A stretch of 41,067 bases of DNA from Methanobacteriota archaeon (GTDB lineage: Archaea; Thermoplasmatota; Thermoplasmata; RBG-16-68-12), in assembly GCA_005878985.1 (NCBI GenBank), contig VBMA01000126.1, positions 1 through 41,067 on the forward strand, written 5' to 3'. Numbering within the stretch: position 1 is the stretch's first letter; each line of letters starts with the position of its first letter. Shown here one piece after another: positions 33,465 to 36,064 of the stretch. A program made the position numbers and the translations under genes. The notes beneath the pieces were generated by a model. It ran no database searches. It saw nothing but the letters and a program-made list of their open reading frames with translations, and was not told the origin of the DNA.

Positions 33465-34271
33465 TCACAGAAGGTCGAAGACGAGCTTCGCAGCGGCGAT
33501 GAACAAGACGATGATGAAGAGCAGCGCGACGGATCGAGTCCTCAACTTCTCGAGGCCCCACCGCGATCCGAGGTACGCGCCGACGAAGACGACCGGCATC
33601 AAGATCGGGATCAGGACGAACTCCGCGGGCCAAGCGAAGCCCCCGGGGCGGAGTGCCAGGTCGACCACGTACGCGGCGAAGCCGACCGCCGCCGTCGGGA
33701 TGATCAACAGCGACGACGTCCCGATCGCCTTCCGAGTTTTTCGGCCGAGGACGTAGACGAGAAGGGGTACGTTCAGCAAGCCGCCGCCGATCCCCATGCT
33801 CCCGGACAGGAAGCCGGACCCCGCCGTCGCGGCCGCCGTGCCGCCGATCCGGGGCGGCGTCAGCGCGGAGTCATCGTCCTCGTCGACGGAGCGGGCGTTC
33901 TTCACCCAGTCTCGGACCATGTACAGTCCGAAGACGATCAGCACCGCGGCGAAGAACGCCTCGAACGTTTCCTGATTCAGCACCTTCAGTGTGAAGACGG
34001 TCCCCACGACGGCTCCAATGAGAGCGCCCGTCAGGAGGACGCGGCCGAGGCGGAAGTCCACGAGTCCGCGCCGGTGATGGTTAATGACGGACGATGTCGC
34101 CGTCGCAATTGTCAGGGTGAGGGAGATCGGCACCGCCAAATCCTTGTCGGGCACGCCGGTGGACAGGAGGATCGGCACGAACAAGAGGCCACCGCCGAGG
34201 CCCAGGTTCGCGTAGATGAACGCCACGCCGAAAATGAGGCCGGCCTGAATCAAGAGCAGGACCGTGTCCAC
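33465..34271 (-). CDS. TSUP-family (TauE/SafE) permease
   Basis: This encodes 268 residues from GTG 34271. Two similar halves each begin with a hydrophobic helix and a Gly-rich GLGGGLLFVPIL or GIGGGLLNVPLL signature (about residues 24-36 and 155-166), the hallmark of TauE/SafE sulfite, sulfoacetate or organosulfur exporters. About eight helices are present. A charged acidic loop (VDEDDDS) separates the halves. Start position agrees with the symmetric TATA element at 34293-34301 (26 bases). Substrate unknown. Confidence 0.92.
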   Translation of the reverse strand: MDTVLLLIQAGLIFGVAFIYANLGLGGGLLFVPILLSTGVPDKDLAVPISLTLTIATATSSVINHHRRGLVDFRLGRVLLTGALIGAVVGTVFTLKVLNQETFEAFFAAVLIVFGLYMVRDWVKNARSVDEDDDSALTPPRIGGTAAATAGSGFLSGSMGIGGGLLNVPLLVYVLGRKTRKAIGTSSLLIIPTAAVGFAAYVVDLALRPGGFAWPAEFVLIPILMPVVFVGAYLGSRWGLEKLRTRSVALLFIIVLFIAAAKLVFDLL

Positions 34272-34292: not shown

Positions 34293-34301
34293 TATTAATT
34301 A
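34293..34301. promoter_or_regulatory. Symmetric TATA element driving two divergent leaderless genes
   Basis: TATTAATTA, with palindromic core TAATTA, is centred at 34297. The minus-strand GTG start (34271) is 26 bases to the left and the plus-strand TTG start (34322) is 25 bases to the right, both the expected TATA-to-start distance. One element could therefore direct both leaderless transcripts. Confidence 0.6.
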
Positions 34302-34321
34302 CTGACGAGAAATATCGGGAC

Positions 34322-35200
34322 TTGGACGGTGCGACCGGATTGGTCCTGCTCGTGCGATTTGGGGAAATTGCGTTGAAGAGCCGGTTCGTACGCCGCCAGC
34401 TCCGCGACCGGCTCGTCGCGAACATTCAGGATCTCTTCGCGGCCGAAGGCGTCGAGTGCATCACGGACTCCGACGAGGCGCGCGTCTATGTCTACGCGGA
34501 CGACGTGGCCCGAGCGCGCTCGATCCTCACGCGGGTGTTCGGCGTCGTCTCAATCAGCCCCGCCGCGGAGACGCATGCCGACCTCGCATCGCTGCGGCAC
34601 GTCGTCCTCTCCGAGGCGAAGTGGTCCCTCGCGGCCGGGAAGACGTTCGCGCTTCGGACGCGGCGCGTAGGTACCCATCCGTTCACGAGCCAAGACCTGG
34701 CCCGCGACCTCGGCGATGTCGTGCGTCTCGCCCATCCAGGGGTGCGCGTGAATCTGTCCCACCCCGATATCGAAATCCACATCGAAGTGCGCCAGAATCG
34801 CGCGTTCGTGTTCCGGGAGATCTGGCCCGGACCCGGCGGGCTCCCCCTCGGAAGCCAGGGCCGCGGCCTCGCGGTAGTCAAGAATCGCGACGGCATGGTC
34901 GCGGCGTGGATGGGGATGAAGCGCGGCTGTCGAATTGCCGTCGCGACGGCGCCAGGCGAACCGCTCGTCGAGCCCCTCCGCCGGTGGGACGTCCGTCTGA
35001 AGGTCCTCGACTTGCCGCCCGACGGACGCCTCGCGGAGCTGGTGAAAATCACCCGGGCGGACGCGGTGTTCCTCGGGACCCGATGGGCCTCGTTCAATCC
35101 CGGAGGGCGCGTGGGCCTCGACGTTCCTTTGTTCGAGCCGGTCATCGGACTTTCGGACGAGGAGGTCGGACGCCTCGCGGCCCAGATCGAATCGGCGTGA
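34322..35200 (+). CDS. ThiI-like THUMP protein with degenerate PP-loop
   Basis: This encodes 292 residues from TTG 34322. The N-terminal ferredoxin-like and THUMP domains (about 1-165, with LLVRFGEIALKSRFVRRQL) are those of ThiI, which binds tRNA. The next segment keeps ThiI landmarks GPGGLPLGSQGRGL and AAWMGMKRGC, but the ATP-binding PP-loop SGG-x-D-S between them is replaced by KNRDG (residues 187-191). The protein then continues as a shortened Rossmann-like half and lacks a rhodanese domain. Adenylation of U8 is therefore unlikely; an RNA-binding role without catalysis is inferred. Transcript probably leaderless. Confidence 0.85.
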   Translation: MDGATGLVLLVRFGEIALKSRFVRRQLRDRLVANIQDLFAAEGVECITDSDEARVYVYADDVARARSILTRVFGVVSISPAAETHADLASLRHVVLSEAKWSLAAGKTFALRTRRVGTHPFTSQDLARDLGDVVRLAHPGVRVNLSHPDIEIHIEVRQNRAFVFREIWPGPGGLPLGSQGRGLAVVKNRDGMVAAWMGMKRGCRIAVATAPGEPLVEPLRRWDVRLKVLDLPPDGRLAELVKITRADAVFLGTRWASFNPGGRVGLDVPLFEPVIGLSDEEVGRLAAQIESA

Positions 35201-35203
35201 CGT

Positions 35204-35869
35204 TCACTTGCCGGTGCGATCGTGCGAGCCAATGCTGGGCCGGATCTTCTCGGCTCCTTTGCCCTTGTACAAGAGCCCGCGGCCCTTCTTCCCCGCGGAC
35301 GTCAGGCCCCGGAAGACGCGCCCGCGGTTCGCGGGATTGGTGATCCAATTGATCTTCGGGTCACTCCGGATCGCGGGATGGTTCGGGTCGACGAGGATGA
35401 CCTCGTAGTACTTGTGCATCCCGTCCTCGCCGACCCAGTACGAGTTCAGGACCTCCATGTTCGGATAGTGCTTGGCGGTCCGCTCCTCCGCGATCCGCTG
35501 AATCGACTTCGCCATCGTGATCTTGACGAGCCCGCGGCGTTTCGGGTGTCGACCGCCCATCGGCCGTGGCCTTCGCCGGCCTCCTCGCCGGACCCTTGCA
35601 CGGACGACGACGTACCCTTGCTTTGCGCGATAACCGAGTTCGCGTGCGCGATCGATCCTCGTCGGCCGCTCCACGCGGACGAACGCGTTACCGCGGCGCC
35701 ACTCGACCATCCGTTGAAAATGAGTCTCCTTGACCACACCGGTCCCAGGATTTTTCCACGCCTGCTTGACGAACGTGTATAGGTTTCGCGGACGAGCCGG
35801 CGGCTTCGCCTCTGCGTCCGGGGCAATGCTCAGCTCCGGTTCCGGAGCCTTTGGGGTTTCGTCGGCCAT
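35204..35869 (-). CDS. rpl15e: Ribosomal protein L15e with N-terminal extension
   Basis: This encodes 221 residues from ATG 35869 (GGGGGTTGGG upstream). From residue 30 the sequence is L15e: [33 protein letters not shown], the basic [41 protein letters not shown] and the C-terminal [23 protein letters not shown] (key parts only). It is a structural protein of the large subunit. The first 29 residues are acidic and Ala/Pro-rich ([14 protein letters not shown] start) and are additional to the usual family start; they may be a lineage feature. It ends three bases from the ThiI-like gene, convergent. Confidence 0.97.
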
Positions 35870-36064
35870 TTCCCAACCCCCTGGATTTACGGATTCGCCC
35901 GAAGGTACAACTCCCGACCAGGGACGTCGAAAGCGCCGCGCCAATGGGGCGAGACTATTAAGCCCTTTCTTCCATGCGGCGGCCCGCTCTCCTGGAGACA
36001 CGCACGTCCCGGAGGGCCTCCCACCACGGCGAACAGGAATCCCCGAATGTTCGGTGGGCACAAA

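Follow-up and report, generated by a model that had tools for sequence, protein, structure and literature searches.

A ThiI-like protein without a PP-loop as the proposed tRNA-binding half of a two-gene tRNA 4-thiouridine synthase in Thermoplasmatota

In ThiI the THUMP domain binds the CCA end of tRNA. The full-length enzyme, tRNA uracil 4-sulfurtransferase (TIGR00342; PDB structures 2C5S and 4KR6), is encoded by one gene and unites an N-terminal ferredoxin-like domain (NFLD), the THUMP domain and the PP-loop (PPase) domain. Related to parts of it are PH1313 from Pyrococcus horikoshii (PDB 1VBK, "ThiI-like protein", 307 aa), which according to a 2023 review lacks conserved ThiI residues and is of unconfirmed activity (PMC9957541), and the standalone PP-loop family NF006222/PRK08349 ("hypothetical protein", 198 aa), to which NCBIfam gives no function. 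No report of a split ThiI was found in our literature searches, the coverage of which did not extend to He et al. 2022 on the archaeal Fe-S ThiI.

The gene described here is located in a 41,067-nt stretch of DNA (the window; contig VBMA01000126.1, assembly GCA_005878985.1) from a member of the Thermoplasmatota, and we regard it as likely to encode the subunit that binds tRNA in a tRNA U8 4-thiouridine synthase split over two genes, the catalytic partner being separate. The features of the locus, hereafter the THUMP gene and its surroundings, are as follows.

33465–34271, reverse strand: TauE/SafE permease, divergent neighbour of the THUMP gene, as in much of the order
34293–34303, forward strand: TATTAATTACT, TATA-like element between the divergent TauE and THUMP genes, invariant in seven relatives
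34322–35200, forward strand: called ORF of 292 aa, proposed THUMP subunit of a split ThiI
34343–34558, forward strand: N-terminal ferredoxin-like domain (Pfam PF22025, ThiI_fer)
34631–34813, forward strand: THUMP domain (Pfam PF02926), some positions conserved
34835–35197, forward strand: pseudo-PP-loop (relic PPase) domain with the motifs GGLPLGSQG and AAWMGMKRGC and the late remnant VPLFEPVIGL
34880–34894, forward strand: KNRDG at the site of the PP-loop SGGxDS, residues 187–191
35204–36061, reverse strand: ribosomal protein L15e (rpl15e), convergent neighbour of the THUMP gene, an adjacency seen in many families of the class

An earlier note, made from the sequence of the window, had described this ORF as an NFLD/THUMP protein with ThiI landmarks in which KNRDG replaces SGGxDS, and both statements were borne out by profile searches and alignment. 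The 292-aa protein matches ThiI_fer at residues 8–79 (3.7e-12) and THUMP at residues 104–164 (8.6e-14), both over the Pfam cut-off, as well as positions 1–203 of the 373 of the ThiI model TIGR00342 (134 bits; curated cut-off 264.5 bits), and only the first 35 of the 197 positions of the ThiI PP-loop domain PF02568 (20.2 bits, just under the cut-off of 20.5). GGLPLGSQG and AAWMGMKRGC flank KNRDG on either side, where the ThiI proteins of B. anthracis and T. maritima possess SGGIDS. Compared to full-length ThiI the PPase domain is shortened, and the GE(N/S)LGQVxSQT loop and RPLxGxDK are represented by the remnants FLGTRWASF and FEPVIGLSDEE, neither motif being intact. In an AlphaFold2 model of the protein (mean pLDDT 80, pTM 0.59) the relic domain consists of alternating strands and helices, and nothing pointed to a new active site. 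The cysteine following the pseudo-loop (C203, window positions 34928–34930, in MKRGC) is common in the split proteins; the matching residue is Ser, Ala or Met in the fused proteins of families f19 and f22, and Cys in one fused protein of family f28.

The true start of the THUMP gene is probably TTG 34340 (286 aa), since relatives begin at the matching codon, which is ATG in four of them and GTG in one. As for the well-placed promoter proposed earlier, the invariance of TATTAATTACT speaks for it, but the element has a divergent gene on either side and could act for the two of them.

Searched with PF02568, the genome of the window yielded one strong match (157.5 bits), a standalone 239-aa protein encoded on another contig (G000:C195:4134-4850), with the motifs SGGFDSP, GENLGQVSSQT and RPLIGFDK intact. 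It matches TIGR00342 at positions 173–367 of 373 with 159 bits, so that together with the THUMP half, which covers positions 1–203, the two proteins tile the model, the cut-off of which is reached by neither half alone. Searches of this assembly, which is 91% complete, found no full-length ThiI, no ThiI_fer (NFLD) domain besides that of the window and no second copy of the window protein. It is conceivable that a gene was missed from such an assembly in the case of this one genome; the same pattern recurs phylum-wide.

The orthologue collection drew on 100 class genomes and 145 phylum genomes, and most archaea of the phylum appear, judging by gene content, to make the enzyme for the tRNA position 8 sulfur as two proteins. 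Among 51 class genomes with a completeness of 90% or more and a contamination of no more than 5%, both split genes are present in 40 and a fused ThiI in seven, leaving one with the THUMP gene only, two with the PP-loop gene only and one with neither; the less complete assemblies have more gaps, and these were rechecked with profiles. In families f40 and f48 both genes are present in 12 genomes and both absent from 18, with one genome having the PP-loop gene only and none the THUMP gene only (Fisher p = 9e-8, a value that overstates independence as the genomes are related). Within genus g66 alone, five genomes carry both genes and four carry neither. Genome G204 encodes two THUMP and two PP-loop proteins, one pair of genes being adjacent and divergent (L260, G204:C1:1066500-1070000). 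Two related f5 genomes (84–85% complete) have the THUMP gene, and no partner was found in them, profile search included.

Families f40 and f48 are probably marine, judging by their genome size and rhodopsin content, and the ThiI pair has been jointly lost in many of their genomes. Light-exposed life, with rhodopsin as its proxy, was considered as the cause of this loss and not adopted, the leaning of the loss towards rhodopsin-bearing genomes being a non-significant trend (p = 0.14). Since s4U is a near-UV chromophore, a larger test of the link between light and ThiI loss is worthwhile.

The THUMP and PP-loop genes are mostly unlinked and their conserved neighbours differ. The PP-loop gene is commonly located after a gene for an E1 (MoeB/ThiF-like) protein and before a small gene whose product has about 95 aa, forming a conserved row of E1, PP-loop ThiI half and the ~95-aa protein (for example, L002:408-2450), the last of which has no Pfam or NCBIfam match. 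Archaeal neighbourhoods of E1 and ThiI have been noted earlier (PMC2948915). The genome of the window contains four matches to the ThiS family, and a ubiquitin-like protein may thus serve as sulfur carrier.

Fe-S dependent archaeal ThiI was described to use a CxxC motif and a third cysteine as ligands (PMC5372739), and these are kept in the standalone partners of most families. In family f1, to which the window belongs, F..T/S replaces CxxC in the partner, with one cysteine kept in most members; CxxC is gone from the partners of f1, f4, f6 and f14 and from the fused proteins of f22 (see L002:1450-2169). As the loss of CxxC occurs in split and fused families alike, the split is independent of the sulfur chemistry. 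An adjacent E1 gene does not explain the loss of the Fe-S cysteines, for E1 adjoins genes with and without them.

Three other explanations of the locus deserve attention. The earlier note had named a local sequence error as the reading that close homologues with an intact motif would support, and an unusual loop, with nothing else, is what favours an error of sequence or assembly, or else a normal ThiI gene decaying into a pseudogene. However, SGGxDS is absent from all 73 aligned split-form orthologues, which come from many genera of Thermoplasmatota, and a motif scan of a wider set found the PP-loop in none of 134 split-form ORFs, a number in which some loci figure twice, while 15 of 15 fused ThiI ORFs keep SGGxDS itself or a near form of it (for example, SSGIDS). 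The partition is thus strict within the phylum: the motif is missing from the split THUMP proteins and present in fused ThiI. Moreover, dN/dS between the window gene and six relatives (Nei-Gojobori) is 0.02–0.15 in the RNA-binding part and 0.12–0.28 in the relic domain as a whole, the latter range meaning that the relic is still under purifying selection. The gene had looked intact in the note, and error or pseudogenization is rejected.

Plain fission of a single gene, with the THUMP half left carrying the start of the PPase domain as a tail without a docking role, would account for the PP-loop half beginning just before SGG in many members and for the occurrence of both fused and split forms in family f28. 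The relic nevertheless spans the whole PPase length including the late motifs (LFEPVIGL against RPLIGFDK in the partner), so the same region is present in both genes, and the tail is under purifying selection. In addition, decay is graded: the longer THUMP proteins of other families retain a larger share of the ancestral PPase domain alongside a separate partner that is itself intact. This pattern agrees better with duplication and complementary loss than with fission, which we hold unlikely. It might also be supposed that the THUMP protein has taken on a task unrelated to U8 thiolation, be it that of an RNA chaperone, of a regulator that binds tRNA or of a different enzyme, the PP-loop protein acting otherwise or alone; the unconfirmed activity of PH1313 (PMC9957541) and the location of the THUMP gene beside rpl15e, with no sulfur-gene neighbour except TauE, are compatible with this. 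Against it stand the joint presence and joint loss of the two genes, the lack of any other NFLD among the search results for the genome, the conservation of RNA-binding-domain positions in the orthologue comparison and the missing signs of a new active site, and we consider such repurposing quite improbable.

The preferred reading is therefore that of a split ThiI, in which the two subunits probably work as a heteromer. The ferredoxin-like and THUMP domains would hold the acceptor stem and CCA end of the tRNA, and the relic PPase domain, having lost ATP binding, would be retained as a docking surface for the catalytic PP-loop protein. The partner encoded at G000:C195 would then adenylate U8 and subsequently add sulfur, giving s4U, so that the relic preserves the interface and the partner supplies the catalysis. 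The homodimer geometry of ThiI (PMC4041423) was counted in favour of a two-gene enzyme. The non-catalytic RNA-binding role offered in the earlier note is thus well supported in the form of tRNA binding, although the partner gene had been missed there, and the new activity offered as an alternative is unneeded, the missing activity being assigned to the standalone PP-loop protein, which this genome shares with others throughout the phylum.

As to the origin of the pair, a full ThiI was probably duplicated, with one copy losing catalysis and the other RNA binding. In the NFLD/THUMP tree the fused forms make up one weakly supported group (support 0.21) and one outlier, and in the PP tree they fall into three separate clades; the trees do not fix the order of events. 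In its broadest form, towards which we lean slightly, the proposal is that these phylum-wide archaeal tRNA thiolases are obligate pseudoenzyme–enzyme heteromers derived from homodimeric ThiI by duplication and complementary degeneration, the formerly catalytic domain having become purely docking or allosteric.

Surveys which want THUMP and PP-loop in one protein, a kind of criterion described in PMC11417400, would probably list these archaea as having no ThiI. If the proposal is true, the pair gives a likely function to two orphans, PH1313, with a crystal structure from 2005, and PRK08349, and the presence of s4U in Thermoplasmatota, gut methanogens included, becomes a testable prediction. The split pair would also provide a clean test of the passage from a homodimer with cross-subunit action to a pseudoenzyme–enzyme heteromer.

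With regard to known systems, full-length ThiI shares its NFLD and THUMP domains with the window protein and its PP-loop domain with the partner, and differs in being one gene instead of two and in possessing the SGGxDS and GE(N/S)LGQVxSQT motifs which the THUMP protein is without. PH1313 resembles the THUMP protein in domain order, length and the missing PP-loop (ILHDELSALAIF), and differs in its origin from Thermococcales. The THUMP family profile matches 1VBK end to end (7–291 to 1–304; 208 bits, 3.3e-60), above the 143 and 127 bits obtained with true ThiI structures, and 1VBK is the top fold match of the THUMP-protein model, the global TM-score being merely 0.55 because the domain orientation differs. 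On the grounds of this full-length homology and of the replaced PP-loop, the THUMP protein is assigned to the PH1313-like family of ThiI-like proteins without a PP-loop. PRK08349 (NF006222) matches the standalone partners over nearly the full length (9.2e-39 for the partner in this genome and 4.7e-62 in another family), its curated cut-off of 251 bits being unreached by the Thermoplasmatota proteins scanned. The tRNA deaminase ADAT2/ADAT3 (Tad2/Tad3) has an unrelated catalytic fold, is eukaryotic and acts on another tRNA position, but it is alike in principle, being a heterodimer that combines a catalytic subunit with an inactive homologous one which carries an RNA-binding ferredoxin-like domain, while the related bacterial enzyme is homodimeric (PMC8216470).
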